Source of the DNA: Piezodorus guildinii
Taxonomy: Eukaryota > Arthropoda > Insecta > Hemiptera > Pentatomidae
Length of the DNA: 64,000 nt
Assembly (NCBI GenBank): GCA_023052935.1
Contig: CM041292.1
Span: 33,834,386-33,898,385, forward strand
Direction: 5' to 3'
Within the stretch, counting starts at the first letter, position 1, and every line of letters starts with the position of its first letter. The position numbers and the translations under genes are program-made. Positions 4,934 through 47,088 of the stretch are shown here, in pieces. A model generated the notes under the pieces. The model searched no databases, was not told where the DNA came from, and worked only from the letters and a program-made list of their open reading frames with translations.

Positions 4934-5130
4934 TTGGAGGCTGATGTCTACTTCACCACTATTTTATTGAAAAAAAATATTCGCACTACGTTTCGGCTAC
5001 AGAATATAACAATATTTTGTACTTTTAGATCTAAGTTGTTCCACTGCACCTGAAGATGGCATTGTAGCCGAAACGTAGTGCGAATATTTTTTTTCAATAA
5101 AATAGTGGTGAAGTAGACATCAGCCTCCAA
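4934..5130. repeat. Perfect 67-bp inverted repeat around a hammerhead-like motif
   Basis: The left arm 4934-5000 and right arm 5064-5130 are exact reverse complements over 67 bp, including an 8-base A/T run, with a 63-bp spacer. The right arm carries the 3' half of a hammerhead-like motif (hairpin 3' strand, GAAACGUA, outer stem). The 5' half lies only in the spacer, so the left arm has an inverted partial copy. Partial inverted terminal copies next to a hammerhead are known from Penelope-like elements, but no reverse transcriptase or GIY-YIG gene is seen here. Confidence 0.9.
5046..5081 (+). ncRNA. Hammerhead-like ribozyme motif a (intact core)
   Basis: Outer stem GCAC (5046-5049) pairs with GUGC (5078-5081). 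Core strand CUGAAGA+U (5050-5057); position 7 of a hammerhead is variable, so this core is intact. Inner hairpin GGC/GCC (5058-5069), then GAAACGUA (5070-5077), which supplies GAA, a two-pair helix III (A-U, C-G) and A at the cleavage position. Helix III has no loop, so activity would need pairing of two copies. Inferred from pattern only. Confidence 0.6.
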
Positions 5131-5361
5131 TTGTATTTTTATTTTAATACGCTTGAAAAACAAATGTTTCACTGTAAAGAACTTTTGATTCTTGACGAAG
5201 AAAAACGAATGATTTCACGTACACGGACCTTTAATATTATCACTAATTAATCACCTTCAATTACATACAGCATCCTCCGTCTAACCCTTTTCCGTTTTCA
5301 TCTCAATTTACTAAAGACCTATCCTCTACTCGATCCTTTGATGCTTGACAGATCTCAGTAA

Positions 5362-5403
5362 TGCCACGATGATGGCTTACAAGTTTGAGCCGAAACGTCG
5401 GCA
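5362..5403 (+). ncRNA. Hammerhead-like motif b (degraded core)
   Basis: Outer stem UGCC/GGCA (5362-5365, 5400-5403). The core strand is ACGAUGA+U instead of CUGAUGA. Inner stem GGCUU/GAGCC (5374-5391), then GAAACGUC. It belongs to the same subfamily as motif f at 30664-30705: the flanks share 'caagtttgagccgaaacg' and 'cgattatttc'. Two core changes make activity unlikely. Confidence 0.5.
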
Positions 5404-5409
5404 AAATTA

Positions 5410-5985
5410 AAAATTTTTTAAATGAAATCCCGATTATTTCATGCTATGATAATTTAAATAGTCATCAAATTGAAACAAAAATACATTCTCAACAAAAGCT
5501 AAAAATAAAAAACCCGGTAACCCCATCACGAGAAGAAGATTGTTGATAAGCAAATAAATAAATAAATAAGAAATCCTTTCTCGCCTTCCTCTGCACGATA
5601 GAAGACTATTTTATTAATCATAAGAATTTCAACCTCACATAGTAATTCAATTAATTAATATGATTGGCCGAAATTCAAAACTAGCGAATTGAAGATAAAA
5701 GACGGAATTAATTATTAAAGCTATGTTCAATCATAACATATAATTGTTAGTTTAATATTACATTACTTTAAAATTAAATTTTTTTTTTCATTCTTATTGT
5801 TTCTCGTTTCTAATGACTATGTTCTTTTTATATACTACTCATGTTCTTTACTATGTTTTTAATATATTACCGTCAAATATCACTTCAAAATTGTTCATAT
5901 TTAAACAATTTTAATGTTTACATATATTATTTCATCATGTTTTCATTTGCTTAGTCTCTCTTTATATATTCTTATTGAAATATTA
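5410..5985. other. AT-rich non-coding stretch
   Basis: No gene seen. Flanking sequence of motif b continues to about 5460; after that it is unstructured AT-rich DNA. Confidence 0.4.
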
Positions 5986-5996
5986 TCATCTTATTT

Positions 5997-6315
5997 TTTT
6001 TTTACTTCCATACTGTATAACTATCATCTTATCAATTATTTTTATAACGGTCATGCATACTTTATGACTGTCATCTTATTATCATTTTACATTTAATTTT
6101 ATGTTTGTTCCCATATTATATTACTGTAACCATATCATTATTATACCAGACGCATTATTAAGTCTATAGTTATATTGGTTGTTATCCTGTTTCTTTTAGT
6201 CTTGATGAAGTCCCTCAATGTAGGCCGAAACGTCGGCACATACTGAAAATATCTCCAAGTTTAAATGTGTGTTTCTTCTAATTCTTTAATGACCCCACCA
6301 ACAACCATCTTCCTC
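5997..6315 (+). mobile_element. ~319-bp non-coding element with hammerhead-like motif, copy 1
   Basis: Homologous over its whole length to 8711-9026 on the other strand; shared phrases include 'acttccatact', 'cattattaagtctata', 'ttttagtc' and the 3' end 'aaccatcttcctc'. It is flanked by a 9-bp direct repeat ATCTTATTT (5988-5996 and 6316-6324). It carries motif c at about two thirds of its length. No open frame, no tRNA-like promoter and no terminal inverted repeat are visible. Target duplications of unequal length suggest insertion by target-primed reverse transcription. Confidence 0.65.
6198..6238 (+). ncRNA. Hammerhead-like motif c
   Basis: Stem AGUC/GGCA (6198-6201, 6235-6238; three pairs with a wobble). 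Core strand UUGAUGA+A (first base changed). Hairpin 6210-6226 with three of four pairs. Then GAAACGUC (6227-6234). Confidence 0.5.
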
Positions 6316-6324
6316 ATCTTATTT

Positions 6325-7183
6325 CTTAACGGTCAACTAAACTACATCATTATAAAGCTATGTTCGTGTTATAATATAATGGAATGAGTTAGGACGTTAG
6401 ATAGGAATTTTAAGAATCTTCAAATAACATGTTAAATACTAATAAGATTTGGAAGATTGCATATATACATCAACAAGACGAAATCAGAACGTGCTAAGCC
6501 ACAAAGGATTGTCCTAGTGACATTGCGTATCTTAAACGTTTGTCAACAATCCATTTGTCGGTAAGTGTAACGTTCAGGACTGCGGTTTCAACTCTTATTG
6601 AAGGCATCGAAAGAGAATTACTTAATGTGGTTCAGTGATGCATTCCCTTTCGATGCATGCTATTTATGATTCAAAGCTATGCCGTAATGTAAGATAATTC
6701 CAACAGTACATGAATTTATTCATTGGCGGTTATGTATGTTGGTTTATTCGTTTTAGCAGCATTACGTATTACAATTAGAAGAGGAAACTATTAGCTATCT
6801 ATTATAACTAGAGTGAGAAGTCTACGTTCATAGCGGAGCGTTGTAATTATACTTTCATATTCTACGGGTAATCATTCTGACTCCAGTGTGCAGTAGCGAA
6901 TTCTAAATGACCGAGAGATATAGTGGAATAGTTCTTAGGAATAAATATAGCTCTTGGGTTCACTGCTAATGCCGTCCTTCGGAGGGGGCGTAAAATGGTT
7001 AAAGATCCCTATTCTAAATAAATCTGGATAGGTAGAATATAGGACTTCCGCTGTATCATTGACCGATTAGCTACAGTAGTAGAAAGTGAAGTTTATAAAC
7101 GTTTTAACGAATAAACCATGATGTTTTAAATAATATAAAATTAGTTAAGAAGCTTAATTGTAGTCTGTATTAAAATTAATTTA
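6325..7183. other. Mostly featureless, with a SINE-C fragment at 6955-7080
   Basis: No gene. At 6960-7080 'gccgtccttcggaggggg', 'aaagatccctattcta', 'tctggataggtagaa' and 'gaccgattagc' match the body and tail of SINE family C (compare 26439-26727, minus strand). The tRNA-like head is absent, so this is a headless relic on the plus strand. Confidence 0.5.
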
Positions 7184-7185
7184 TA

Positions 7186-8072
7186 TTGGGTTGTGTCACA
7201 TGAAATGTCCGTTTTCAAGGTAAAGGATTTTTATTAAAAATACGATATAAAAACATGATAATTTTAGTCGAAGTATTTACCTTCTTTTTTTACACATTTT
7301 TCCCAACGTGACAACAACTTTTTTATCCCCGAACTGAAAAACTCTGTGCTTTGAAGTGAAAAAAAAATCTGAAAACGCACTTTTCACTTGATCATCATTT
7401 TCAAAAAGTTTTCCTTTGCCGAAGTTGTCTAAATTCCTGAACAGGTGGTAATCTGTTGAAGACAAGTCGGGAGAATATGGTGGGTGCGGAAGAACTTCGT
7501 AGCCCAGTTTTTTCAATTTTTGCTCGGTATGTTTTGAAACATGGGGTCTTGCTTCCGCTCAGTGAGATCATGAGGTACCCATGTACCGAGCTTTTTTACT
7601 TTCCCAATACACCTTAAATGTCTGGAAACGGTAGATGCACTTGCATTTAGTTGTGCTGATAGTCCTTTAACTGTTTGGTAGGGGTTTCCTTCTTCTACAT
7701 GTTTGAGGATATCGTTGTCTATTACGGACGGAGGTCTTTCTCGGGACAAGTTTTCCAAGTCGGTATCCCCAGCAAACCAACGGCGAATGGTCCGTTCATT
7801 AACACTCCCTTCCCCAAACGCCTTGCAAATATTTCTAGCGGCCTCAGCTGCTGAATGTTCGAGTTTAAACTCGTACAAAAATATTATTTGAAAATCGCGT
7901 GTTTCCATGTTCATATTTGGAGGTATACTAAAAAGTGGATAATTTATGGTAGAGGACTAGTAACTGTTTAGTTTAAATATGTAAACATTCGGAAGAAAAC
8001 AACAGAGACCTGCAAAATCCTTTATGTATTTCAGAAACTATAAAAACGGACATTTCATGTGAAACAACCCAA
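7186..8072 (-). mobile_element. Mariner-like DNA transposon 2, internally deleted
   Basis: An 887-bp element with 30-bp terminal inverted repeats (7186-7215 and 8043-8072) that differ at one base (TTGGGTTGTG on one side, TTGGGTTGTT on the other). TA flanks both ends (7184-7185, 8073-8074). Its repeats and transposase differ from those of mariner 1, so it is a different family. It is about 0.4 kb shorter than a full mariner. Confidence 0.92.
7277..7914 (-). pseudogene. Mariner transposase with core deletion and frameshift
   Basis: The N-terminal half (7914 down to about 7550) is open: METRDFQIIFLYEFKLEHS, then the helix-turn-helix and the linker IGKVKKLGTWVPHDLTERK. At about 7549-7553 it joins, out of frame, to ARPHVSKHTEQKLKKLGYEV. 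The central domain with the first Asp, and the second Asp that sits just before ARPH, are therefore gone. The third Asp survives in SPDLSSTDYHLF. The C-terminal part ends at 7277. The gene is inactive. Mariner 1 lost an overlapping region independently. Confidence 0.88.
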
Positions 8073-8074
8073 TA

Positions 8075-8694
8075 ATTATTTAATTTTGGCAAGTTGGACG
8101 CAGAATAAACCTTTAGACTCCTAATTAAAAAATAATTAAGTTAAAAAAATAATATCATAAACGTTTTTTACTTTATTACATTTGTTTATTTTAAATATTT
8201 TTTTGTTTTTCTTGTCCTATCTTTTTATTTATTTTTATTAAAACTCTAATACTGTTTGTCATTAAGTTGTGCATTCTCACTTTTTTGTTTTATAATTTCG
8301 TGCTGAAGATGTGGGATTTTAAATACAGCGCTATATAATGGATTAACTTTATAAAGTAATTATTTATGTAAAGGAGATTCCTAAAATATTACTAATATAT
8401 TGCAACGTGTCATTTTGATTTATCAGTACGCTGTATAAAGGAGAAAAACATTAGTTGGGCAGCACTGCTTTGTCTTTTGTTGATAATCAAATAAACCTTT
8501 TCTATTTGATTTTTTCCAATAAAAAAAAAAAAAAAGTTTTCGATACTTAACGGCAATTTTCCTCCTGAACCGTTGAGAATCGGACTATGGTTCCTATGAT
8601 ATTTTTTTTTCCTCTTCATGTCCAGCATAGGTTTCTTCAATATGACCAGAAATTTATAAGACACATATTAACCCATTCGAGATCCATTGCACAC
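8075..8694. other. AT-rich non-coding stretch
   Basis: No gene. 'agttgggcagcactgc' near 8453 is an inverted match to 'gtagtgctgcccaact' near 1783. The 84-codon minus-strand frame at 8410-8664 runs through an A-run and has no domain. Confidence 0.4.
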
Positions 8695-8710
8695 CGTTTG
8701 TAAAATAGAT

Positions 8711-9026
8711 GAGGAAGATGGTTGGGGTGCGGTCATAAATTAGAAACACACATTGAAAATAAGTGCTATTTTAATTACGTGCCGACGTTTCGGCTTTCAA
8801 TGTGGGCCTTCATCAGGGCTAAAAGAAACAAGATAACAACCAATGTAATATATAGACTTAATAATGCGTTAGGTATATAATAATAATATGACAGTAATAT
8901 AATATGGGAACATAAATAAAATTAAATGTAATATGATAATGAAATGACAGTTATAAAGTATGGAAATAAATAAAATTAAGATGATAGTTATAAAGTATGG
9001 AAGTAAACAGAATTGAGATGATAAAA
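8711..9026 (-). mobile_element. ~316-bp non-coding element with hammerhead-like motif, copy 2
   Basis: Minus-strand copy of 5997-6315. It is bounded by a 16-bp direct repeat CGTTTGTAAAATAGAT at 8695-8710 and 9027-9042, which fixes both ends to the base and shows recent insertion. The element contains motif d with an intact core. Its 3' end (plus-strand 8711) reads 'aaccatcttcctc' on the minus strand, as in copy 1. There is no poly(A) tail or open frame. Confidence 0.8.
8780..8820 (-). ncRNA. Hammerhead-like ribozyme motif d (intact core)
   Basis: On the minus strand: outer stem GCC/GGC, core CUGAUGA plus an extra A, inner stem GGC/GCC with an 11-nt loop, then GAAACGUC. All invariant hammerhead core bases (C3 to A9, G12-A13-A14, A-U next to the cleavage base C) are present. 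It lies inside the element at 8711-9026. Confidence 0.65.
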
Positions 9027-9042
9027 CGTTTGTAAAATAGAT

Positions 9043-9868
9043 TTCCGAGGCAATAAAACAGCCTGCACACCATTAATTCTGAGTAAAATAGTCATCGAAA
9101 TAAGAATTTTCTGGAACTAATGAAATCTCTCATGTACAGGAAAACAAAATTTGACATTGGTTTTACTATGTACCAGAAAATCTAAAAATTATCTGTAGCC
9201 TTTCTACCATGAAAAATACTCATGCAGCGAAGGCTTAAGATAATAAGTTTCATTCAGGCTGTATGAATAGAAGGCGATACACAGGCTATGTAGGCTTAAG
9301 ATAATAAGTTTTTCTTTTCTCTGACACATCTTTATCCGTGGATAATTAAGACATTTTCTTTGAATTATATTTTGTTGTTTATTACTAAAAGCAAAATAAC
9401 GATCTTATATTATCTAACTATTTTTGGAATAAATGTTTTAACATTTTTTAATGATGCATTTTCATTTTACCCTACATTGCCCACATGGTGTTCAATCTAC
9501 TCCTCGCAATAAAAATTTTCCGAGAGAAGAGATGCACACCCGGTGTGCAACGATACTATTTATGGGAATTAACTCACAAATTGGGTGATTTCCACAGTAA
9601 ACATGTTTTTTTTTATTAAACTATACAAAGAAAAAAATATTGCTCATGAGGACGGTGCTTGCCCATCTCGAATGGGCTAAAAACAAATGTTCTTTTCAGT
9701 CCTTCCTAGTTTAATTCTTGCATTCTCGCATCCTTGATTAGCTTATGAAGGCAGGCTTGTTCAGCACAATTTTAAAGGTAATAAAATGAAAAAGTTTGTC
9801 TAAGATTTGGAAAATTTAAAACCTAACGACAGAAGAATAATAGGACCCTGAAATTTAGGAATACTCTT
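9043..9868. other. AT-rich stretch; right part is a diverged copy of 1596-1745
   Basis: No gene. 9700-9868 matches 1596-1745 ('cccttgatta', 'aaaacctaacgacagaag', 'aatactcttagaa'). Confidence 0.45.
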
Positions 9869-19592: not shown

Positions 19593-19746
19593 GAATAAAA
19601 TTATTTAAACACAAATAACCTAGACAAATCCAACTTTTAATTTTTATTAATAAAATAATTATTGAACCTGGAGTATATATGACAGTAAATTTAGTCAGGA
19701 GAGCAGTGAAAAATCACTCTAATAATAAAAAAATAATTTATTTCTG

Positions 19747-19787
19747 TGCCGACGTTACAGCCTAAATTTTAGACTTTCACCAGGGCT
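19747..19787 (-). ncRNA. Hammerhead-like motif e (core changed, strong hairpin)
   Basis: On the minus strand: outer stem GCC/GGC, core CUGGUGA+A (A6 changed to G), an eight-pair inner stem AGUCUAAA/UUUAGGCU, then GUAACGUC. The following sequence ('ttttcttag' upstream on the minus strand; 'acagttatagaatatgg' on plus) resembles the 317-bp element, so this is a diverged member, roughly 19700-19880. Probably inactive. Confidence 0.5.
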
Positions 19788-19799
19788 AAGAAAAATAAA

Positions 19800-20415
19800 A
19801 TTACAACCATAATTAGAAAATAAAATAAATTAACAGTGTGATAATAAGAAAACAGTTATAGAATATGGAAAAAAAAAAAAAAAACAGTTTCCAGCCATTT
19901 CACATCATGAGAATATATATAGTACAAAAATATAATATAAAAAAAAATATCTAGAAAAAAAAACAAAGAATATTTGGTGATTGTATCTTTATGAATAAAA
20001 TAATTTTTAATGACAACTTATTTTTTGTAAAGCATAAACATTTCATATAAGATGACTTTTGGTATGAAAACATTTAAAAATTAAATTACCGAACCCACAA
20101 AAATAAATAAACGTTTTGAAAATTTGGTATATAATAGCATATATTTGTATACATATTTAAAACAATAAGGTTGAAATGTGTGGTGAAAAGAAAAGTGTGA
20201 AAATAATTCTTAACAATAAGAAAATACATACTTGACAAGGTAAGGGAATCTTAATAATATATTTTGTTTCCTTTTAAGCTAAACAACTAACTTAATCATA
20301 TACACATCTTATGATGTGTGCCCAACTGTTATTATTTTTTCATTTTTTATTTAATTTTCTAAGTATAGCAGTCATCTTTCAAATCGGTTCTTGGATTTCA
20401 TGCTTTTTCAGTTTG
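19800..20415. other. AT-rich non-coding stretch
   Basis: No gene seen. Contains an A-run at 19869-19884. Confidence 0.4.
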
Positions 20416-20674
20416 AATTCTCTTCAGTGCAATCTTGAAAACATCACCAGACTTCAGGATAACAACAGCAGTAAATATTGGAGCAAACAACAGTAAGTTT
20501 TGTTACAATTTACGGTGTAAAGTGAATGCTGGGTAACCTCTTCACATCAGCTGATTGCCAATAGCTCGGCAAGGCCGGGATTGGTTTTCTTTTCTTTAGT
20601 TATTGTTTTATTACCAACATCTAGTTATTTTCTTATTATCTTCTTCACATGAAATGCGATATTTTCACCAAGTG

Positions 20675-21973
20675 ATGTCCTCCAAAGCATCAACTAAAAG
20701 ATCTAGATCTAGTGGTTCAATCACGTCTCCCATAAAACAAAGACCCCGCCGTGATACTAATAAAAAAATAAATCAACAAGCAACCCCTTCAGGTTCTAAT
20801 ACAGAATCTGAACCACAGCCTGGCACATCGTCACAGGGGATGATTGACGAATCTCCGTTTTTCACCCCAAATCCTTTTCAAATCCTACATAATGAAAAAG
20901 AAAACATGGAATCTGCTCCTACACCCAGTGAACCACGGCCTCCACCGATATTTGTAAAAAATATTAAAAATTTCCAGTTGTTATGTGCGCAATTAAACAA
21001 GATTACCGAATCCACCAGCTACTACTGTATGAGTAGAATCAATGACACCAAAATATCACCGGCCACCGCCGAGGCATATAAAAAAATTGTGAAATACCTA
21101 ACTGAAACTAAAGCGGATTTTCACACTTATCAGCTACGGCAAGAGAGAGCTCTTAGAGTTGTGATCAGAAATCTACACCCTTCAACACCAGTTGACGCTA
21201 TCAAAGAAGAACTCATGGAGATGGGTTACAAAGTGCGACAAGTCACTAATGTCATAAAAGATAGAGTTCAACTGCCTCTATTCTTCGCTGACTTGGAACC
21301 ATTAGCAGGAGTAGAAAAAATTTATGATCTAAAAAGACTGTATTATACAAGTGTAAGAGTCGAAAAACCTTATACAAAGAGAGAAATTGTTCAGTGTTAC
21401 AATTGTCAGGCGTATGGTCATACCAAAAGTTACTGTCACCACATACCACGCTGCGTGAAATGCGGTGAACAGCACAAGTCTGTGGAATGTACAAAACCGA
21501 AGTCAACACCCGCTGTATGTGCTCATTGCCTCAAGGACCACCCGGCCAACTACAAAGGATGCCAAATCTATAAGGAACTAAGGACCAGGTATCAAAAACC
21601 CCAAGTACTGGATGAAACAACAAGACAGGCTAGAACTAGAAGAGAACCCTCAAAATTAATCGATGCCAATGTATCATTTGCCTACTTACTTGGAGGTGGG
21701 AACCAATGTACTGAAGCCGAGGCCCTGCCGGAACTACAAAATGTACCTCAATATCCTCAATCCATTCCACAAATACCTCTTCCTCAAAACGTAATCAGTC
21801 CTAAAAATCCTCATCCACAACAAATCTCTCATATTCCCCCTCCTTCAAATGCCACAGATCTTACCAGTTTGATGACATCCTTCATTTCCGAAATCAAATC
21901 CCTTGTCATGCCCCTAATAACAATCCTCACGAATCTTGTATCAAATCTTATTCCTAACTTAAAAAATCCATAA
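20675..21973 (+). CDS. LINE ORF1 protein (Gag-like, PRE_C2HC plus zinc knuckles)
   Basis: RNA-binding nucleoprotein of a Jockey-type retrotransposon; such proteins package the element RNA. I chose the Met at 20675 (MSSKASTKRSRS), giving 432 residues; an upstream in-frame Met at 20603 would add 24 atypical residues. The basic, Ser/Pro-rich N-terminus is followed by a region like the PRE_C2HC domain (RVVIRNLHPSTPVDAIKEEL). Three zinc knuckles follow, starting at residue 241 of this start: CX2CX4HX4C (CYNCQAYGHTKSYC), CX2CX3HX4C (CVKCGEQHKSVEC) and CX2CX3HX6C (CAHCLKDHPANYKGC). The tail is Pro-rich, then hydrophobic (SLVMPLITILTNLVSNLIP). The stop codon abuts the ORF2 start as TAAATG, suggesting termination-reinitiation. 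The frame is intact. Confidence 0.9.
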   Translation: MSSKASTKRSRSSGSITSPIKQRPRRDTNKKINQQATPSGSNTESEPQPGTSSQGMIDESPFFTPNPFQILHNEKENMESAPTPSEPRPPPIFVKNIKNFQLLCAQLNKITESTSYYCMSRINDTKISPATAEAYKKIVKYLTETKADFHTYQLRQERALRVVIRNLHPSTPVDAIKEELMEMGYKVRQVTNVIKDRVQLPLFFADLEPLAGVEKIYDLKRLYYTSVRVEKPYTKREIVQCYNCQAYGHTKSYCHHIPRCVKCGEQHKSVECTKPKSTPAVCAHCLKDHPANYKGCQIYKELRTRYQKPQVLDETTRQARTRREPSKLIDANVSFAYLLGGGNQCTEAEALPELQNVPQYPQSIPQIPLPQNVISPKNPHPQQISHIPPPSNATDLTSLMTSFISEIKSLVMPLITILTNLVSNLIPNLKNP

Positions 21974-24418
21974 ATGACCTCACCTAACTCCTTATCTATT
22001 CTCCTATGGAATGCGAATGGTGTTAGAACTCACACTGACGAACTTACAGCCTTACTCCAAGACAAAAAAGTTGACGTTGCACTCATTACTGAATCTAGAC
22101 TAACCACTAAACAGTACTTCAAAATACCTGAATACACAACATACCGGACAAACCATCCAGACGGCAAAGCGCATGCCGGTACTGCTGTCATTGTCAACCG
22201 ATCCCTCTCCCATCACTTACACCCACTTCCCGCCCACGATTTCCTACAAGCCACCTCTATTATAATCAAGACCTTTTCCTTTCCGCTAGTCATCGCATCA
22301 GCATACTGCCCTCCTAAAAATTCTATTTCTATTATCCAATTTGGTTCCTTCCTCAACTCATTGGGGAATCACTTTATTCTGGGTGCAGACTTAAACGCGA
22401 AGCACCAACAATGGGGTTGCAGAACCACAAATACTCGTGGACGGACATTGCAGTCTGCACTCAACTCCAGACGCCTTAATCTCCTACCTCCCGATTCTCC
22501 TACCTACTGGCCAACAGATCCTAACCGTAATCCAGACATCCTCGACTTCTTCATCCACAGCGGATTAGGCTCCCTGAACTATTCCGTAACTCGCCTTGAT
22601 GAACTATCCTCTGATCATAGTCCATTAATCCTAAATGTATCCATGACTCCTATTCCGAAACCTTTCCCACCGCCATTCATCAGAGGCCCCATCAACTGGA
22701 ACATCTTCCGCGAAATCCTCACCAATGATATCGACCTCAGAGTAACTCTCAAAACCCCTTCTGACCTTGATGATGCCGTATATTCCTTTACAACCTTGAT
22801 TCAACAAGCTGCCTGGACTGCCTCCTTTCCTAAACAATCCCAAATTATTCCTTACAAATGCCATTTACCACAACACCTGACGGACCTCATCAACACCAAA
22901 CGCCGAGCCAGAACATTATGGCAACGCACCCGCCACCCAGAAGATCGTCGCTCTTATAACTTTTATTGTAGAAAATTAAAGCGGGAGTTGGCGACCTTTC
23001 GTTCCCAATCCTAAAATTCCTACCTCTCCTCTCTCCCGACTCGTGACAATTCCCTGTGGAATGTCACGAAGAGAATCCTGAATACTCACACGATTTCCCA
23101 TCCTCTCCTGCGCGGTGATAGTTCCTGGGCTGCTTCTGACAAGGATAAGGCCCAGGAATTTGCACAGCACCTTTCCAAAGTTTTCACTCCTCATCCTGAG
23201 TTGAATCCAAACCATACTTCAACAGTTGAACAGTTCCTTACTTCGCCAATACCACTCTCCTTACCTCCTAAAGCAGTTAATCCCTCTGAGGTCAAATATC
23301 TTCTTAAAAAGCTTCCTCTCCGTAAATCCCCTGGATATGATCTCCTCACGCCTCAGATCTTAAGACAACTTCCACAGAAAGCCATTACATTCCTTACATA
23401 TCTTTATAACAGTATCCTACGCACTACCTATTTTCCTCTCTTATGGAAACATTCAACTATCATCCTTTTCCTGAAACCAGGCAAACCTTCCAACAGCACG
23501 TCATCTTACAGACCTATTAGCCTACTTCCGATCCTCTCAAAAATTTTCGAAAAGCTCCTACTAAAACGAATCCTAGATAAATTTAAAAATTTTCCTTCCC
23601 ATCAGTTTGGATTTCGTTCTCAACATTCCACAGTTCAGCAAGGACTCCGAGTTGTGGATCACATTTCCTCTGCCCTTGAGTGCAAGGAGTATTGTTCGGG
23701 TGCCTTTCTGGATATAGCTCAAGCTTTTGACCGGGTGTGGCACCCGGGATTGCTCTTTAAGCTCAAAACCCATTTACCTCAATCCTTATACCTAATCCTC
23801 CAATCCTATTTATCAAACCGCTCCTTCCGAGTTCGCTGTGGTTCCGAATTTTCCAAACATTATACTGTTGAGGCCGGTGTTCCTCAAGGCAGCGTCCTGT
23901 CCAACAGTTAAATTCAATTCCATACCGCTTCCTTCCTCAGACACAGTCCGGTACCTTGGCTTTTTACTAGACAAAAGACTGACGTGGAACCCACATACGA
24001 GACTTAAAAGGATAGAACTCAACCGCAGATTCGGCCGGTTATACAAATTACTAAACAGAAAATCTCATCTTACAGTCGACAACAAATTACTAATATATAA
24101 GACAGTACTGAAACCTATATGGACCTACGGACTTGAACTATGGGGACAACTAAACATTCTAACATCAAACGTATCCAATCCTTCCAATCCAAAGTCCTCC
24201 GAACAATAGTTAATGCTCCTTATTACGTTACCAACTGTACCCTACACCATGACCTTAATATTCCATTTATTTTAGACCTGGTACCATCCAAATTCTCCAA
24301 ATTCCATCAGAACCTTCTTCATCATCCTAATCCTCTTGCTCAATCGCTTTCCAGCTTCACCCATCTCTACAATCCTCCTCGAAGATTGAAACGGCAGTGG
24401 CCCCGCGACGTTTTGTAA
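21974..24418 (+). pseudogene. LINE ORF2 (endonuclease-reverse transcriptase), broken
   Basis: Would nick the target DNA and copy the element RNA. Endonuclease motifs are complete: WNANG (residue 12), ITESRL (Glu40), LGADLNAKH, ILDFF and SSDHSP (Asp214, His215). Lesions: (1) a single in-frame TAA at 23012-23014, after which the same frame runs on to 23911; (2) an internal deletion at about 23895-23905, joining GVPQGSVL directly to SCPTVKF and removing the YADD catalytic box, with shared 'tcctg' at the join suggesting microhomology; (3) a one-base deletion near 24140 (ELWG to TTKHSNIK). The palm motifs GAFLDIAQAFDRVW and YRPISLLPILSKIFEKLL remain. The C-terminus ends at PPRRLKRQWPRDVL. Relatives at 51498-52653 keep the YSDD version of the deleted box. 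Not functional. Confidence 0.9.
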
Positions 24419-27359: not shown

Positions 27360-27503
27360 ACACTATTTAACGAGGACCGGACTCCACCACCCTGGGTAGA
27401 TCAGTTCACAACAACCCTAACCAATTTTATGAACACTATCACAAATCAAATAACCCAACTTATTCAGACAGTCGTTTCTCTCTTCACCAACAAACATGCG
27501 TAA
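27360..27503 (+). pseudogene. C-terminal remnant of LINE L2 ORF1
   Basis: Forty-seven codons open from 27360 to TAA at 27501-27503, reading TLFNEDRTPPPWVDQFTTTL and then a hydrophobic tail NQITQLIQTVVSLF. The tail resembles the Leu/Ile-rich end of the L1 ORF1 protein (SLVMPLITILTNLVSNLIP). It overlaps the ORF2 start by 8 bases (ATGCGTAA). The rest of ORF1, including the zinc knuckles, was lost by 5' truncation. Confidence 0.75.
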
Positions 27504-30117
27504 TCAGCATACCATCATAAATTTCAACGCCAACGGATTTTTAAAACGCAAAGAGGAAATCGAAGTGTTATTATCTTTAACTCGCCCGTCTATCGCGGTC
27601 TTCACCGATACAAAATTAGTACCAGAAGTACAAATTTGTGGTTACTCGACAATCTCCGATGATAGTCAGGACCCGCATGGAGGAGTACTAATAGCAGTTC
27701 GGAAGGGAATAGTATGGAAGAAAGTATCTCCGTTAACCTCAGTAATTGACAAAACCATTCATCATGTCACTGTTCAAATACGTTTAGGACAACCAATATT
27801 TATTACAGGAATGTACAGACGTCCACGTAGTTCGCTGGTGGAATTTAATCGAATAATGGTGGAATGTAGTAAGAAAAGCAATCACTGGATTATCGGAGAT
27901 TTAAATGCTCGCCATTCGCAATGGCATAATAACAAAAGCAATAAAGCGGGCCAATTCATTCTCAAATCAGCTTTTACTGTGATCCACCCTTCCTCTCCTA
28001 CTTTTAGGCATTCAGCTAACCCTTCACCGACCTCAACCATCGACCTGATCCTGACACGACAACCTCACAAAATCACTGCATGTGAAGCTCTTGACTTCAT
28101 TTCGTCAGACCACCGTCCGGTATATTATGAATTAATGGGTAAAATGGAGAAGCCAAAACCGACAAACTACAGTTACCGACAGGCAGATTGGGATATGTAC
28201 CGGAACATAGTCCAGAACCAACTCGGTTGCGTTCCAAAATTGACCACAAAGGAAGACGTTGATTCGTACATAATTGATTTCACTAATAAGGTAGTAAACG
28301 CTGCAAATGCCGCAATTCCGAAATACGCACCAGTTCCTCCTTTCTTACAATCACCCCCCGATCACATTCTGCAACTCATTGCGCTACGCAACAAATGGAA
28401 GAACAAGTGGTATCGTACTAAAAACCCTGGTATAAAGAGCACGGTCAACGCGCTGACATCACAAATTCGCAGGCTGATGAAAATATGGAAATCGAGTTTG
28501 TGGCAGGATAAACTTAATGCAACACATGGGGATCATAGGAAGTTTTGGAAACTTTTACGCACATCAACAAAAAAGGTGTCTTCAGTAAGGATCCATGATG
28601 GTGATAATATCATGCATACAGATAAGCAAGCGGACATACTCGCTGAATATTACGAGAAAAGCTTTCAAAACCAAGCTTCATACGATCTGCCCCATGAAGA
28701 GTTCCCTCACCAGCAAAACTTTATGTTTGTATCACCTAAAAAACTTAAAACGATCCTTCGCAGAACAAAGGGTAATAAGGCACCAGGAAATGATGGGATT
28801 CAAACAATCTTATTAAAACAATTACCGAAGAAAGGTATCATTCACTTGGCAAATCTTTACAACTCCTGCTTCCGTTTAAGATATTATCCAGATACATGGA
28901 AAAAGGCCATTCTCATACCTTTGCTGAAGCCAGCAAAAAATGGAGACAAACCAGAACATTACCGCCCGGTATGTTTGCTGCCACATTTAGGAAAAATTTT
29001 CGAAAAAGTAATTATCAACTACTTAAGAGATTTCTGCACGGATCACGACATTATTCCTCCCGAGCAAACAGGGTTCCAATGTCAGTTAAGTACTGAGCAT
29101 CCACTGATAAGGCTACAAGCGGACGTTACAAGAAACCTAAGAAATAATCTGGCCACAGCAATGATTTCTATGGATTGTTCTAAAGCCTTCGACTCTGTGT
29201 CGCATGGATCGCTATGTCAACAACTCATGACCTTAGACTGTCCGGAGCAACTTTTCTCAATCATAAAGTCATTCCTTATGAAGAGGGATGTCTCGGTCAA
29301 GGTGGGAAACAGTTTATCCAAGCCCATAATAGTGAATCGTGGGGTTCCCCAAGGTGCCGTCCTCTCTCCAATTTTATTTAACTTGTACACGGCTCGCGTA
29401 GTAGGAGAAAACTACGATCATTGCAAAGTAATGGCGTACGCTGATGACATTGCCATTTATAGTTCAAGTACTAACTCATCCAAGGCAATGGCGTATGCTG
29501 AAACCACTGCAAACAAAATAGTGGAAAAGCTCCGATTTTTAAATATAATCGCAAATCCTGAGAAAACGGATGGTATAATTTTTTCTTTCCAAAAAAATAA
29601 AAAGAAATTACCTAAAAAGTTTACGATAGAAAATGTAAAGAAATCCATTTCCAGGACAATATTATACCTAGGAATCAAATTTGACCGACACTTGACTTTT
29701 GCAGGTCACTTTAGAAAAAAACTAAATCATGTTAGAAACAAGTCGTACAGACTAGCCCATCTCCTCACCTCGCCACACTTAAGTTTGCGACTGAAAATCA
29801 TTATTTACAGCAGCTTCATCCGGCCAGCTCTGCTGTACGGTGCTCCTATGTTTCCTCATATCACACAGCACACAGCGAAGAAATTACAGCAATTTCAAAA
29901 TGGGGTGGTCAAAAAAATATGCAGAAGCACTTCACTCTGGAGGGAAAAAACTCTCAATGTTCATATAATTTTGAACATCCCAACTGTGCAATAGTTTATG
30001 AAGCGACGCCAGGTTAAGTTTTTTGAGACTATAAAACAAATTGCGAATCCGCTAGTTTCTAGCTTAATACCTCCACCAGCCCCGAAACGGTGGCAAAATG
30101 CTGTTTTATCTGAGTAA
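27496..30117 (+). pseudogene. LINE L2 ORF2, endonuclease-reverse transcriptase, one late stop
   Basis: Open for 832 codons (27496-29994), then TAG at 29992-29994, after which the same frame continues with FMKRRQVKFFETIKQIANPL to TAA at 30115-30117. The original protein was about 873 residues. Endonuclease: NFNANG (11-14), FTDTKL (Asp38 where the family has the metal-binding Glu), GDLNARH, SSDHRP. Reverse transcriptase: YRPVCLLPHLGKIFEKV, SMDCSKAFDSVSHGS (Asp560), GVPQGAVLSPILFNLY, MAYADDIAIYSS (Asp650, Asp651), YLGIKFDRHLTF. The catalytic Asp residues of the polymerase are all present. Only the last ~41 residues are cut off, so reverse transcriptase activity might persist; the Glu-to-Asp change may weaken the endonuclease. 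Translation probably depends on reinitiation at the overlapping ORF1 stop. Confidence 0.92.
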
Positions 30118-30508: not shown

Positions 30509-30663
30509 ACATAGCAGTTAGATACAGATGTATACTTAATTGTCATCAATAAATTCAAATAAAAATTAATTAATATATACTAATTTGAGGATGTATAGTC
30601 GACTGTTAAAATTATCGTAGGTAGAAATAATCGGGAGTCAGTCGTATTTGAATATTTTAATTT

Positions 30664-30705
30664 TGCCAACGTTTCGGCTCAAACTTGTGAACCATCATAA
30701 GGGCA
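30664..30705 (-). ncRNA. Hammerhead-like motif f
   Basis: On the minus strand: outer stem UGCC/GGCA (four pairs), core CUUAUGA+U (G5 changed to U), inner stem GGUUC/GAGCC (five pairs with one wobble), then GAAACGUU. Same subfamily as motif b. The first 8-nt strand differs at two bases from an active core, so it is probably inactive. Confidence 0.5.
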
Positions 30706-31283
30706 TCACTGAGCCATGTCCAAGCATAAACTGCTTTATGACTTCCGATTATTTCCAACTACAAAAGTAATGTTTATATACATCTATTTTTGGTTGACAT
30801 GACATTGGAAAATTAGAATGTTTTAATTGAAAAAATAAATAAGTATTTTCTTGATATACTTAGATAGACATAACGTTAACAGATTTTCCTAAGAAGATAG
30901 TATATATTAATTCATTAATGCCCTTTTAATTAGATGATATATTTTAGTCATGCTTTTGTACATCTAATTGAGACATTGATTTCCAAAAGGTACTTAAGAA
31001 TATTTTTCACAAAAGTGACTAAGAGTTTGCTTCATACATGCATTTAAATAGCAGTATAAATGTCGAAACAATTTTAAAATAGCAGATATAATTAGTTTAC
31101 AGATAAGAATTACAATACAAAAATACACCGGATGGCGGTCAGTTAATAATTATTCCCGCCACCCTGACTAATTCCTTTCAGTGAAACTATTTTAGTTTAT
31201 GTGATAGTGAAATAGAAAAACTTCTTTAGCAATCATTGACGAAATGATTTTTATATAAATTTCATTTATAAATAAAGAAATCA

Positions 31284-31285
<2 letters not shown>

Positions 31286-31335
<50 letters not shown>
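31286..31335. repeat. (TA)n microsatellite
   Basis: Pure TA repeat inside the segment that separates blocks A1 and B1. Confidence 0.95.
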
Positions 31336-31337
<2 letters not shown>

Positions 31338-31454
31338 CCAATATATTGTGCAATATATAAATATATATAATCTGAAGAAAAGAAATATTATAATCTGAGG
31401 GAAAGAAATACCTCGAAACGTCATTAAAGTATTATTTATGTTAATATAAATAAA

Positions 31455-31870
31455 AAAAAAATCTGCATATTATTACACAATGGTTTATTATTTCCAAATA
31501 ATAATATTAGGGTATAACTGTTTATATGACTATCGGTAGGCAATTAAGTAATATGAAAAGCACTAATTCAAAGCATCATATCATAACACTACCACTGTTT
31601 TCAAAACGCAATGTCTAAGCTAGTTGTAAACCAAATTCAATGATTCTTTTTTCGTTTGGTTCAAAATTTAGTTCTCTATTAAATGGCACTAAAAGCAAAA
31701 AAATGTTGTATTTATTCATTTTTTATTAGGAGAAACGGATTTTTTATTCGTTATTCGGATTCTACGCATCTTGAAACGTAAGCTCTCAAATTTTGAGCAG
31801 GGGTAATTTTTTTGTTGTTTTTTTTCGTCTATTACAAATGTTGATTATTGAAAATAATGAACCAAAAGAG
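31455..31870 (+). repeat. Family D copy, longest in the window
   Basis: 'ttattacacaatggtttatt', 'gcaattaagtaatatgaaaa', 'cgttattcggattctacg' and 'gtaagctctcaaattttgag', followed by a T-run and 'cgtctattacaaatgttg', in the same order as 1995-2240. The class is unknown. Confidence 0.55.
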
Positions 31871-33259
31871 AAGAGAAAGTTCCAATTATTTCATTCATAA
31901 TTAAATTTACTCTTCTATAATAATAATTGACATTATAATATAGTTTAATATATAAGAATATACAATAAAATAGGAATTACGTTAAAAGGGATATTATTCT
32001 TAATTTTGAAGTGAATATTAGTTTAGTGAAAACTCATTTTTTAACTAAATATCTGAAGCGGAAGTTGTATAACTGTTTACGAAATCTCCACCAACTTCGA
32101 ATTTAATAAGACTTCGAATCTTTTATAGACGGCGAGTTACATGATGTTTGTTTTATGAAATATAAATTGGGCTTGATGGGCACTGCTTTCTGACGTCCGA
32201 TTATTTCCAACTACAAAAGTAATGTTTATATACATCTATATTTGGTTGACATGACATTGGAAAATTAAAATGTTTTAATTTAAAAAAAAAATAAGTATTT
32301 TCTTGATATACTTAGATAGACATAACGTAAACAGATTTTCCTAAGAAGATAGTATATATTAATTCATTAATGTCCATTTAATTAAATGATATATTTTAGT
32401 CTTGCCTTTGTACTTCTAATTGAGACATTGATTTCCAAAAGGTACTTAAGGATATTTTTCAGAAAAGTGACTAAGAGTTTGCTTCATACATGTATTTAAA
32501 TATCAGTATAAATGTTGAAACAATTTTATAATAGCAGATATAATTAGTTGACCGATAAGAATTACTATACAAAAATAGACCGGATGGCGGTCAGTTTTTT
32601 TTTTGTTTTTTTTCGTCCATTACAAAGGTTGATTATTGAAAATAATGAACCAAAAGAGAAGATAAAGTTTATTCCAATTATTCCATTCATAATTAAATTT
32701 ACTCTTCTATAATAATAATTGACATCATAATATAGTTTAATATATAAGAATATACAATAAAATAGGAATTTCGTTAAAAGGGATATTATTCTTAATTTTG
32801 AAGTGAATATTAGTTTAGTGAAAACTCATTTTTTAACTAAATATCTGAAGCGGGAGTTATATAACTGTTTACGAAATCTCCATCAACTTCGAATTTAATA
32901 AGACTTCGAATCTTTTATAGACTGCGAGTTACATGATGTTTGTTTTATGAAATATAAATTGGGCTTGATGGACACTGTTATCTGACGCTTCTGAAGATGA
33001 AGTGTGTAATGAAGACCTCATGACAGCCCATTACCAGAGGAAATTTAGAAGGGAGTATGTGACTTTCTTACCCAACGATGACAGATAAAGTGTTGTACCT
33101 ACTTGTGTTATAACTTGTACCCTGTGTATTGCAAGTATATGATTATATAACTGATCTTATAGTATGTGTGATTTTTTTTTCTTTCATGCTGGTTTGCAAG
33201 AAGATCCATCTCACGTTAATGGTGATTCGAAGCAACAAATTATATAATCAGTAGTTGGT

Positions 33260-35290: not shown

Positions 35291-35356
35291 AGAAGGAATT
35301 AGTCCGAGTGGTGGTCATTAAAAGAAACAATTAAATAATTTTAACTTTTAATTGTC

Positions 35357-35397
35357 TGCTAACGTTTCGACCCCCATAATGGGTTATCATCAGGGCG
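35357..35397 (-). ncRNA. Hammerhead-like ribozyme motif g (intact core)
   Basis: On the minus strand: core CUGAUGA+U, inner stem ACCC/GGGG-type (four pairs with a small shift), then GAAACGUU. The outer stem GCC/AGC keeps two pairs. All invariant core bases are present. Confidence 0.55.
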
Positions 35398-35510
35398 AAT
35401 CATAGGCCGAAACTGGTAACAATTATTAAGAATAAAATAATTTTTGTAAATTATACATTAAAATAAAATTTGTAAATAAAATATATTTTTGCTAGTTTCC
35501 GCCTACGATT

Positions 35511-35551
35511 CGTCGTGATGATGACTAACAATGGGGGTCGAAACGTTGGCA
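35511..35551 (+). ncRNA. Hammerhead-like motif h
   Basis: Outer stem CGUC/GGCA (three pairs), core GUGAUGA+U (first base changed), inner stem GACU/GGUC, then GAAACGUU. Partner of motif g in opposite orientation. Confidence 0.5.
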
Positions 35552-35799
35552 GACAATAAATATTTTATTATATATTAAAATTTATGTTTCAATAGACAAC
35601 TACTGTCGGTCTAGTACACTCTATTAGATAGTAATTGTGTAAATGTACCTCATTAAAAATTTATGAATGTCGCCGTCAGAATAGATAAATCTAAACTTTT
35701 TTTTTTTTGTATGTTGTTGACTAATAATCTCTTGAAAGGGAAGAGGTGTACTTTAGAGTGTTAAATTGGGTCCTCTCCAACAGGACAAAAAACAAAAAA

Positions 35800-37975: not shown

Positions 37976-38425
37976 ATGAACCGTAAAAAATACAAATGAT
38001 GATTAAAGAATATAATAACTAAATAATTATCATGTCTACATGCATAACCTCGACTAAAATTTAAAACATAAAAATTACAAAACAATACAAATTTACGAAA
38101 CACATCTATAACATTTTTAATTCACTTATTTGCATGGAAACTGGATGTCATGATTTTTTGGAAATTGAATGGACAGGAAGTAATGGAACGACATTTAAAA
38201 GTCTGAAGGGTATTAGAATTACGGATATCAGAAGGAATAGAGTCCCTTATGGAAGAGGATCGGATTATGAAAGATCTGTTTAATTACTTTTATAAATAAT
38301 ATAAGTATATTTTTAATTTTTATCATAGTGGATATAACTAGTTGACCGTTAAGAATTACTAGAAGGGATAAGTCCGGGTGGTGGTCAGTGAATGAAACAA
38401 TTTATAGTTTGAACTACTTATTTTC

Positions 38426-38464
38426 TGCCAACGTTCGAACCCCATTGTTGGTCGCCATCAGGTG
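38426..38464 (-). ncRNA. Hammerhead-like motif i (damaged)
   Basis: On the minus strand: CUGAUGG, hairpin GACC...GGUUC, then GAACGUU (one base short). Probably inactive partner of motif j. Confidence 0.45.
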
Positions 38465-38509
38465 AAACAATGATTTATAATTTTTCGTAACAAGATTCGC
38501 CTACAATAC

Positions 38510-38548
38510 GCCCTAATGATGACCAACAATGGGAGTCGAAACGTTGGT
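38510..38548 (+). ncRNA. Hammerhead-like motif j
   Basis: Outer stem GCC/GGU, core CUAAUGA+U (G5 changed to A), inner stem GAC/GUC, then GAAACGUU. Confidence 0.5.
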
Positions 38549-38758
38549 AAAAATACATGGTTGAAACTAATAAATTGTTACATTCACCTGGACTAATTCC
38601 TCCCAGTTTTTAAGTTTTTGTTTCTGTGCCAGACACAAGACTCAGTTTTTGTACTTTACCGTTATCCTTAGAGGACTGAAAGTTTTAGAATAAAATTTAC
38701 TTTTCTTACTAACTTTCTTACGAATATTTTGTTGAAATACTTTAATATTTTTTAATAG

Positions 38759-43245: not shown

Positions 43246-43249
43246 ATTT

Positions 43250-43385
43250 AATTCTGTTTTCCCGGTTTTGAATACCGGCTGTGGCAGAATAAATATATTA
43301 TTTTAGCTTGAGGTGGCCCATGGGTACGGAGACCCCAATATGGAACAACCAGCCTTTATAAAGTGAGTATCCAAAAATTCGGAAA
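43250..43385 (+). mobile_element. SINE family B fragment
   Basis: 'cggttttgaataccgg' (degraded B box), 'gcagaataaatatatt', 'ggtacggagaccccaat' and 'ataaagtgagtatcc' match the head-body junction of 48533-48860. The 3' part is missing. Confidence 0.6.
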
Positions 43386-44844
43386 AAAAAAACCTTAATA
43401 AATTGGATGAAACCTATATAAACTCGTTTGACCAGGCATTGATTGATATTATCTGTTGCAATACAAATGCTGTTTTTTTTTTTCTCTATGGTAAATTGTA
43501 TAGATAATGTCGGTTACTTAATTAAATAATCCTAATAAAAATATGTTATTTCAAATGGTTATTGCTATTTTTTTTTGTTTAATTTATCGTTAGCTTTCAG
43601 ATATTTCTTGACTTTATTAATGATTCTATATTAAATGTAAATACTTATGAACAGGTCCTTTACACCAGTCTTTCAGCGAATTCAGATGTTTATGAGTAAT
43701 AGATGTTTTTTGTTAAATGATTTTTTAAAAGTCGAGTTCTTCTTTACTCAAGAGAGAGAGAGAGAATAATGTGTATATTAGATATATAGATGGTATATAT
43801 TTTTCGTAGATATATTTTTTGTTTATAGTGTATAATATATTTTTATAAAACAATGAATAAAGACTATAAAAGTTTTTGTATGTTTCTGTAAATATGCAAT
43901 TCCTATTTAAAGTTCAGTTTTGTTATTTTAAAGATTAAGAGCTACTGTAACCCTTGGTGTAAGTGGATTTTTTGCACCTCTGTGCGTTTCTTAAAATAAA
44001 CTCCTTGACATTTATAGGCTCCGGCGAGAGAAAAAACGATCCAGGAGTGTTGACATAATTTTTGAGAGGCATGACAAAATATCAACAATATTGTTAAAAA
44101 CAAAAAAAATACATCTAAAATTTTATTATGCATGAAGTTTTTTATTTATTTATATTTTTAAAAGTTGAAATTCTGTCTCATTGTGACCGAAAACAAATGA
44201 GCTAATTCGGTGTGATGTAAGATCATAAAGTTCCACTACATTTGCATCTCTTCAATTAGTTCAATCTATCGGTCATCCTTTAGAAACCTATTTATTTCGT
44301 TTGATTTAAGTTAATTGAAAACGGAATTTTAAAACTTATTTTTTGATATTGCTATTTTCTTTTGTGCGCCCGTCACTACTAGGCCTGTTTCGATTTTTAT
44401 TAAATTATCGATTATCTAAATCGGATTAAATTCATTATTTTAGATCAAGTATCTGTTTCACTTACTGTTCCAAATTCTTCCTATTTTCAAAAGTGAATAG
44501 TAGGTTACGAAATTTTATAACATTAAAGTTTAATTTGTGTTTGCATTTGTTCAACTTCGGAAAAGTTTATTTCAGCGTTTCATTTGAATATCAACACTAA
44601 GTGTTCACAACACTCCAACATCAGCTTTTGAATAATGCCTAGTAATGCTTCTCGTTTTTATTTTCCCCTGCTTTTATCAGTGACTGGATTTATTTTTTCT
44701 AAAAGAAAATTTATTATTTATTATCTATTTAGAAGAGTTCATTTGACAAAAATGTCAAAACATTTAACTTCTCTTCTTTCAATAATATTTTATTATCAAT
44801 AAAAAATCTTTTCTTGCCGTATCTTCAAATATATTCTTAAAAAA

Positions 44845-44925
44845 AATTCAACATCATTAACATATTTACTTGTTGTATTATAAAGTACAGTTGTAAATTT
44901 CAATAAATGATGTTATAAAAAAAAA
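44845..44925 (+). mobile_element. LINE J1 3' tail fragment
   Basis: 'catatttacttgttgtatta', 'gtacagttgtaaatttcaat' and 'aaatgatgttat' plus oligo(A) match the last ~80 bp of J1 copies. Only the tail was inserted. Confidence 0.65.
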
Positions 44926-46569
44926 ATCATTAAATTATTATTTATATTGTTTTCTTATCGACTAAATGAGATAATATATTTTATATACTTATTATATTTT
45001 ATAAGTTGAAATTTTAAATTTATTAATTAAATGATATTTTATGCATTTTACATACAATCTTCTACATCTTCACTCTTCCTTTTATTTCACTAACATATAT
45101 TTTCATTTTATCCAGTATTACTTTTGTATTACTATTTTCAACTGATGTACTTTAATCCTAACCATACTTTTCATATATTTTTATTATATTTTATTCCACT
45201 AGTACTTCCACATTTATTATTGTTTTTAAATTAATTAAATATTATTAATCACATTTTAATTTATTCATATGCATAATTATTAATTGGATTGGATTTTATT
45301 AGCAATTATCATTATTAATATATAGAAATTATTTGGGTTGCAGATGTTTGTAATTATCCAAGATGATATATTATCAAATTGAAAATTATCAAAATGCTTT
45401 AAAATTCCGTCGATTATTATAACGCAGTTGTTTGAATATTTCTTTTTCTGATGATGATGTTCAAGAAATGAAAAGTATATTTATCTATTATTCATCGTAT
45501 GTCGTTTTTTTTTTTGTTTTTTTTTTTCTGTTTTGGCACAAGTCGAACCTTACGGTAAGTAATATCATCACTCTGCCACACAAGCTGTTGCCAATTGATA
45601 AATATCTCGGAAATGCGATGTCGATGAAAGTTTCTTCAAAAGGAAATAGTAGTTTTCCTTCTCGGAATGTGACAAGCGGAATTTCGATATGCTTATGAGA
45701 TTCTTTTGTAGAAAGTTCTTCATCTTCCCTAATTGGCCATCTTATTCTTTCCCTCTTCCGGTACTTATGAATCCGTTAAGGATGAGAGATGAGGATGATA
45801 AATTTAATAATATCTTTTAAATTGTTTTAGAAACTCTTAGGATGCGTGATGGTCGAAGAACCTATTTGTTCATTATGTATATTTCATTTAAGGAGTGGGG
45901 TTGCTGTGTGACTAGGGCAATAGGTTACTAATATGCAGGTCAACTGTTTTTTATTTCGTCCGGTTGTGGTAGGAAATTTATTAAATATGTTATATAAGCT
46001 TTAAATATTCCCGTCGAATAATCAGGCTGGAGACCTTTATAGCTCACCCAGTCCTTTAAAAATTGGTACTTGAAATCAAGAATTTTTACCGAGTCACATT
46101 GAGACATCTGCACTTACAGTTTTAAGTCTTATGCTTCATTCATTATTTTTACTTTCATATATAATGCAGTCTTTTTTGTATGGATTTGAATGATATAACT
46201 GTTACCTGGTGGATTAAAGAAAAAACATTTGTGTACATATGACTTAGGTTGTATTTATGTTTTTCCCTTTTTATTATTTTATTAATTTTGAGTCTATAAT
46301 TAACCATTATATTGTATCTAATGTAGTATTATTAATCTAAAATTTCCCCAAAAAATGTAATCATGAAAATAATTTTTTGGAATTAAATGTTTTTACAACG
46401 AGTTGTACTTTATTAGAGATCAGGAAAAAACCAAACAAAAATAAAACACATATAAATCACAGTCCCACTAAGGCTGTCCCGTGTAGGATAAAGGAGTTTA
46501 CCCGCGGAAATTCAATAGAAGTACAAGAACACAATGAGAAACAGTAAATCACTGAGCTAATAAACTAAA

Positions 46570-46640
46570 AAGACTAAAAATTATTACACAATTGTTTATT
46601 ATTTTAAAATATTTATATTAGGGTGTAACGATTTATTATT
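46570..46640 (+). repeat. Family D fragment
   Basis: 'ttattacacaattgtttatt' and 'atattagggtgtaac' match 31465-31520. Confidence 0.5.
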
Positions 46641-47054
46641 ATTATATTAGCTGTGAATTAACCTATTTTATTAATTAATATTTAAGGAAAATGGTCAATT
46701 ACCACTGCTAAGTTGAAACAATGTTTTTTCTATCTCTTAACCGATTTCAAAGGAAATTTATTTATTTTGTAAAAATATTAATTGTCTTTTTGCATGAAAT
46801 TATCTATTGCTATAATTTTTTGGTTTTCACAGTGTGATTCGGCCGACAGATGTTTTTTTTTCATCATTAAGGGATTCACTCTAAATTTTGACATATCACC
46901 GATATTCACAAAGATTTGTTTGAGAATATCTAAAATTTACATCAATATTACTGACTTTCAGCCAAAAAAACTTCGACGTAGACGAATACGAATTATAGAG
47001 TAAGCTATAAATGTGAAATAATGAATGATATATGTAAAAGTATTTTCAAAAAAG

Positions 47055-47088
47055 TCTTGAGAATGGGGAAAGAACCCCAAAACGTTGA
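47055..47088 (+). ncRNA. Possible hammerhead-like motif k
   Basis: UC, UUGAGAAU, hairpin GGGG/CCCC (six-base loop), AAAACGUU, GA. It keeps the 8-nt/8-nt spacing and a non-G base after GU, with a strong inner stem, but the core bases are changed and the outer stem is two pairs. Confidence 0.35.

Follow-up and report, generated by a model that had tools for sequence, protein, structure and literature searches.

The window analyzed here, a stretch of 64,000 nucleotides that forms part of contig 1 of the 1.2-Gb genome assembly of Piezodorus guildinii, holds a dispersed set of short motifs resembling hammerhead ribozymes, 12 of which had been listed in a first-pass annotation made from the letters alone. 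Upon reading all 12 sites individually, we found their positions and layout to be correct, with 11 being related copies that share, in order, a first strand of stem I, a 7-nt core, one extra base, a stem II hairpin, a GAAACGTH-like string and the second strand of stem I. Comparison of the flanks sorted the copies into families A (5046, together with a half motif at 4994(-) that was absent from the earlier list and constitutes the inverted arm of 5046), B (5362 and 30664(-)), C (6198, 8780(-) and 19747(-)), D (two head-to-head pairs, 35357(-)/35511 and 38426(-)/38510) and E (47055). With a probability that we would put at about 0.93, these sites represent pieces of Penelope-like elements (PLEs) of several families, in each of which a minimal type I hammerhead is located close to the junction between its pseudo-long terminal repeat (pseudo-LTR) and its open reading frame (ORF). 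The first-pass annotation had missed this retrotransposon carrier.

Exact strings had been proposed to be shared by all of the sites, which was too strong: GAAACGTH was found at 9 of the 12, whereas CTGANGA was found at only three. Both strings are intact at 5046(+), 8780(-) and 35357(-), and the dozen usable ribozymes initially suggested for the window are thereby reduced to three candidates having an intact core. Requiring both stems of 3 bp and at most two core mismatches, we counted seven sites in the window, whereas 60 first-order Markov shuffles averaged 0.1 and never held more than 1; 35357 falls outside these seven owing to its weak stems. From 10 of the sites we built a covariance model, which recovered those 10, by construction, with E-values from 7.6e-16 to 6.5e-10, the next match having an E-value of 0.66. 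The stem positions of the same 10 copies formed standard pairs in 91.7% of 60 cells (six pairs), versus 17–45% in slid versions, and four of the six pairs had changed on both sides. Site 47055, previously rated as weak, was found to be a genuine relic of family E (71% over 182 nt to locus L053, E = 9e-16). Site 30478(-) gave an E-value of 5.1 with the covariance model, and the nearby genome matches covered 30562–30620, which belongs to the element of 30664(-); we regard this site as a chance match.

The whole genome was scanned by exact pattern, with a reversed pattern as control. The pattern CTGATGA-N10-30-GAAACGTH gave 29,596 matches (14,861 + 14,735), with 45 for the control, corresponding to 1.6 per 64 kb; as the window holds two such matches, it is typical of the genome. 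With G as the final base the pattern gave 254 matches (control 7), which supports the earlier proposal of an H at the cleavage base, with the caveat that the copies share ancestry. A pattern lacking the insert and having GRC/GYC stems gave 20 matches (control 0), a number that makes no strict ratio with that of the main pattern because it comes from a narrower definition. Chance matching to a loose pattern, which would suit 30478(-), is refuted for the other 11 sites by the genome count set against its control and by the shuffled windows, and as an explanation of the set we consider its probability negligible.

The carrier emerged from a search of the genome for the GIY-YIG domain, which gave at least 103 matches, with 150 of 2,216 candidates being scored and the best 30 loci fetched. 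The hammerhead-like motif was present in 27 of these 30 loci, in 31 records that amount to 29 distinct motifs since the loci L065 and L082 overlap, while shuffles of the 30 loci (20 runs) gave a mean of 0.4 and a maximum of 2 motifs. At L103, a frame of 961 codons lies between identical direct repeats of 315 bp, each with a motif, the two motifs being 3,691 nt apart on one strand, and an additional inverted copy of 3,479 bp has 99.97% identity. The C-terminal half of this frame scored above the Pfam cut-off for GIY-YIG, and half of the frame at L104 (family E) scored above that for RVT_1; the remaining two halves gave a weak unrelated Pfam match or nothing, and searches with the whole frames of L103 and L104 (928–960 aa) gave no Pfam family. 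Using residues 400–900 of the L103 frame, we found 69 homologues, 58 having RVT_1 and 4 having GIY-YIG. At L099 (family D), each arm of a 4,445-bp palindrome bears a frame upstream of the motif, with reverse transcriptase (RT) and GIY-YIG each slightly under the Pfam cut-offs, and at L101 (family C) a frame upstream of the motif has GIY-YIG slightly under its cut-off. The L099 and L101 frames matched, respectively, the L104 frame at 5e-64 and 3e-56, the L103 frame at 7e-55 and 4e-40 and the best homologue at 1e-85 and 3e-83 (blastp). Across L103, L104, L099 and L101 we hence find an ORF with RT and GIY-YIG, and the motif lies in the PLE pseudo-LTRs of family A (L103), D (L099), C (L101) and E (L104). 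The layout, too, is that of PLEs, with direct or inverted pseudo-LTRs, an optional tail and short probable target duplications, the latter judged without an empty site for comparison.

With regards to the ribozyme itself, the hammerhead layout, the type I strand order and the two-pair palindromic helix III suggested in the first pass were all supported. Seven representatives (A, A of L103, B, C, D, E and F) had standard pairs in 49 of 49 cells, with slid versions being 14–56% paired, and six of the seven pairs had changed on both sides, which together with the window copies bears out covariation in both stems. Stem I comprises 3–5 bp and stem II 3 or more bp in the motifs of the PLE families. 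All seven representatives end with GAAACGT followed by A, C or T, whereby helix III becomes the palindromic ACGU, having two pairs alone and four between two motifs. Genome-wide, the motif displays the type I core of CUGANGA, GAA, A15.1-U16.1 and H17, with family E departing at positions 3 and 8 as a pair. Stem II does not directly adjoin A9, with one inserted base in 29 of the 29 distinct motifs of the GIY-YIG loci, as had been proposed; six of the representatives have U there and one has A. Published hammerhead alignments, in the excerpts considered here, include one- or two-base insertions between CUGAnGA and the stems. Moreover, an extra-U pattern, CTGATGATGGC-N4-20-GCCGAAACGT, had 23 exact matches in viral (18) and prokaryote (5) contigs, of which 16, some near-identical, were complete hammerheads (15 of the viral and one of the prokaryote matches) by a layout test demanding at least 4 bp in each of helix III and stem I; with the no-insert pattern, 13 of 21 matches in viral contigs were complete, some again near-identical. 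In view of the published insertions and these 16 matches, the inserted base does not exclude membership among hammerheads. The complete extra-U hammerheads reside in 15 viral contigs and one Paenibacillus contig (L001, L002, L004–L010, L012–L015 and L017–L019). They are like the motifs studied here in the extra U after A9 but unlike them in having a full helix III, and can thus act as monomers.

Rfam scans of the window, and of 8760–8860 alone, gave no hammerhead match. When 13 of the 16 loci with complete hammerheads (L001, L002, L004–L010, L013 and L017–L019) were scanned at the gathering score, no hammerhead match was found at the site in any of them; L002 had a Hammerhead_II match elsewhere than at its complete hammerhead, and in L004 alone the complete phage hammerhead received a 16-bit, off-register Hammerhead_II match (cut-off 37). 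As complete hammerheads were likewise unmatched, the silence of Rfam on the window is uninformative, and the search used here missed extra-base hammerhead variants in the cases tried. Rfam microRNA matches near 4946–5172, far under their cut-offs, are explained by the palindromic nature of copy A.

Positions 3 and 8 pair in the known hammerhead structure, and it is precisely there that family E differs. Its motif, GTC-TTGAAAA-T-GGGGAAACAACCCC-GAAACGTC-GAC, fits the hammerhead core except for these two positions, where both bases have changed, giving U3-A8 in every one of the 20 distinct family E motifs that the GIY-YIG loci contain (L053–L082 and L104). With a four-pair GGGG/CCCC stem II, the family E motif has 1,862 exact matches in the genome and none in the control. 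This natural compensatory swap of the core pair is not new as such, since covariation of C3-G8 to U3-A8 in several natural hammerheads, active in vitro, is already reported in the excerpted text of PMC3088659; what is added here is a high-copy retrotransposon family that appears to be built on it.

The copies found in the window are collected in Table 1. The family A insertion, 97–100% identical to the pseudo-LTR ends of L103, has a tail only on its left arm, about 40 nt long (about 4883–4922), and a 12-bp direct repeat, TTGTATTTTTAT, at 4874–4885 and 5131–5142 that is probably a target duplication; its motif at 5046 is identical to that adjoining the GIY-YIG locus L066. The 8780 copy, having a shorter 5' side than the 6198 copy, is bordered by a perfect 16-bp direct repeat, CGTTTGTAAAATAGAT, at 8695–8710 and 9027–9042, also probably a target duplication; the 3' copy of the repeat is partly tail-like and two of seven alignments extend into it. 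For the 6198 copy, an 11-bp repeat, TCATCTTATTT, was considered as a target duplication and withdrawn, because host-genome copies align across it (5730–6354). No PLE coding remnant was found in the window by tblastn at 1e-4, the queries being 34 PLE proteins, four from host frames and 30 from among the 69 homologues. The copies in the window, non-coding and for the most part decayed insertions, are predicted to lack a role for the host.

Table 1. PLE-derived copies in the 64-kb window and their predicted hammerheads (positions in the window)
Feature	Position	Strand	Description
Family A insertion	4874–5142		Head-to-head Penelope pseudo-LTR ends; arms 4923–5001 and 5063–5141
Family A hammerhead	5047–5080	+	Intact core CTGAAGA, GAAACGTA; extra U after A9
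Family B hammerhead	5363–5402	+	Decayed core ACGATGA; element match 5338–5463
Family C element	5730–6354	+	80% to L101 (5730–6319); 80% to L089 (5788–6354, tail included)
Family C hammerhead	6199–6237	+	Core TTGATGA, C3 changed
Family C element	8695–9042	-	Element about 8711–9026; 86–87% to both arms of coding locus L101
Family C hammerhead	8781–8819	-	Intact core; extra A after A9
Family C hammerhead	19748–19786	-	Decayed CTGGTGA, GTAACGTC; element match 19729–19882
Family B hammerhead	30665–30704	-	Decayed CTTATGA; element match 30569–30732
Family D hammerhead	35358–35396	-	Core strings intact, stems I and II weakened; left arm of head-to-head pair
Family D hammerhead	35512–35550	+	Core GTGATGA (C3 changed); right arm paired with 35357; palindrome 35307–35604
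Family D hammerhead	38427–38464	-	Decayed CTGATGG, GAAA minus one A; left arm of head-to-head pair
Family D hammerhead	38510–38548	+	Core CTAATGA; right arm paired with 38426; palindrome 38388–38587
Family E relic	47054–47089	+	Core TTGAGAA, AAAACGTT; U3 and A8 kept, G12 changed; element match 47053–47233

The window also contains other repeats. A duplication spanning 30730–32987 starts where the family B copy 30664(-) has its 5' end, with 30730–31144 occurring again at 32182–32596 (94%) and 31807–32195 at 32595–32987 (95%). A mariner-type element at 7172–8087 has inverted ends (about 45 bp, 91%), its minus-strand transposase frames (HTH_48) being broken, and a second mariner transposase remnant lies at 2348–3073 (+). 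Non-LTR retrotransposon frames with endonuclease and/or RVT_1 are located at 20600–24209 (+), where a PRE_C2HC gag-like frame was found as well, at 27454–29994 (+) and at 51523–52673 (-).

The orientation of neighbouring motifs in the genome was tallied for the first 100 places of the match listing, every one of them on contig 1. At distances of up to 500 nt there were 13 head-to-head, no tail-to-tail and 11 same-strand cases, and at up to 5 kb there were 20, 4 and 13, respectively. Head-to-head is the commonest Penelope arrangement according to the excerpts of PMC3846280. Priming of reverse transcription by both target strands would produce this form, and the Anolis enzyme is described in the parts of PMC11167929 considered here as cleaving and extending both strands; self-priming is the origin preferred in PMC3846280. 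Same-strand pairs were found with spacings of 3,691 nt (L103), 3,298 nt (L104) and 296 nt (L083). At L083 (G000:C1:1190200-1200100), intact family D motifs form a 296-bp tandem array of seven minus-strand units followed by four plus-strand units, head-to-head. This array resembles the tandem repeats of about 300 bp with type I hammerheads known from metazoan non-LTR retrozymes (PMC7229834, in excerpt), and could be taken to mean that some of the short copies are a non-autonomous, retrozyme-like family that spreads as small circular RNAs and borrows PLE enzymes. We find this improbable: the published metazoan retrozymes mostly carry canonical hammerheads, according to the same excerpts, unlike the minimal ones seen here, and plain PLE insertions explain the window copies because their 5' ends differ and they match the pseudo-LTR ends of coding elements.

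How would such minimal hammerheads be used by the PLEs of P. guildinii? We propose that the elements would be transcribed through tandem units, as reported for the Anolis element (PMC11167929), and that two motifs, located in the same RNA or in separate ones, would then pair via ACGU to form a four-pair helix III, as suggested by other PLEs, for which dimer cleavage is cited in PMC7761336. As in those elements, a cut after H17, perhaps aided by the element protein, would give a unit-length RNA with 5'-OH and cyclic phosphate ends, having a predicted length of 3,691 nt in L103 and 3,298 nt in L104. The window has no tandem dimer, since its three copies with intact cores are on opposite strands or 26 kb apart, and because it lacks closely spaced intact motifs on the same strand, its copies are fossils with regards to dimer cleavage.

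Several observations weigh against an assignment of all these sites to PLE families with working hammerheads. The eight remaining real copies in the window have one to three core changes each, the window target duplications sit in A+T-rich sequence, and no coding PLE was found to adjoin family B, with 18 of the 20 loci of one set, including every family B locus, lacking a PLE coding match. Beside coding frames, family A reads CAGAAGA (U4 to A) at L059, L060, L062, L063, L064 and L103, which makes the activity of these motifs doubtful; CTGAAGA is kept at L066, the sole exception among the coding-locus copies seen, and at 5046 in the window. The minimum-energy folds of 8780 and of 35357 alone are not hammerheads, and in that of 5046 the inserted U pairs with G12; dimer cofolding was uninformative, since none of the three intact copies had the hammerhead dimer as its best structure. 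Both the rarity of G17 and the constancy of the insert are partly due to shared ancestry of the copies. For the Anolis PLE, finally, the excerpts of PMC11167929 describe a hammerhead that cleaves only with protein, RNA-seq ends that are absent at the cut site, and insertion in vitro with a dead hammerhead, the ribozyme being dispensable for that step. The last finding, the U4 to A change in a family A element recent enough to have arms 99.97% identical, and the common ancestry of copies within a family could all be accounted for by a motif that is no longer catalytic in these families and conserved by descent, or by another role at the pseudo-LTR end such as binding of the PLE protein or serving as part of the region where reverse transcription starts. 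We deem this unlikely, considering that six of the seven pairs covary across the representatives, with the core pair 3-8 included (as in all 20 family E motifs), and that H17 is C, A or T and rarely G, which is to be expected of a cleaving core more than of a plain binding site.

Minimal type I hammerheads of PLEs were reportedly described by Cervera and de la Pena in 2014 and by Lunse, Weinberg and Breaker in 2017. Their presence in PLE pseudo-LTRs and a proposed cleavage as dimers are thus already in print, as far as the passages citing that work tell. Based on these citing passages, the motifs found here are like the published ones in type I order, in having almost no helix III, in being dispersed, in their pseudo-LTR position and in tandem arrangement, and may differ from them by the extra base after A9 in every representative and by the U3-A8 family. 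The elements themselves are like the Adineta vaga Penelope and the Anolis PAc in having head-to-head pseudo-LTRs, a one-sided tail, short duplications, partial tandems and an ORF with RT and GIY-YIG; for A. vaga, the excerpts of PMC3846280 describe a neighbouring inverted pseudo-LTR, an optional tail of 31 bp carried by one of the two, and duplications of 8–10 bp. PAc also has its hammerhead at the pseudo-LTR/ORF junction, with the ORF starting inside the hammerhead (PMC11167929), whereas the first in-frame ATG of L103 lies 108 nt past the predicted cut.

On the strength of these sequence likenesses, we consider the PLE-borne minimal hammerheads of P. guildinii to be additional members of an arrangement already described in animals. 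One might speculate, although we think it doubtful, that PLE hammerheads constitute a subclass with an obligatory insert after A9 and positions 3 and 8 free to swap as a pair, dependent on dimers or protein, in which cleavage licensed by the PLE protein would separate the unit-length template from tandem read-through RNA. The genome of P. guildinii hosts several coexisting Penelope families with minimal hammerheads, amounting to tens of thousands of exact motif copies.

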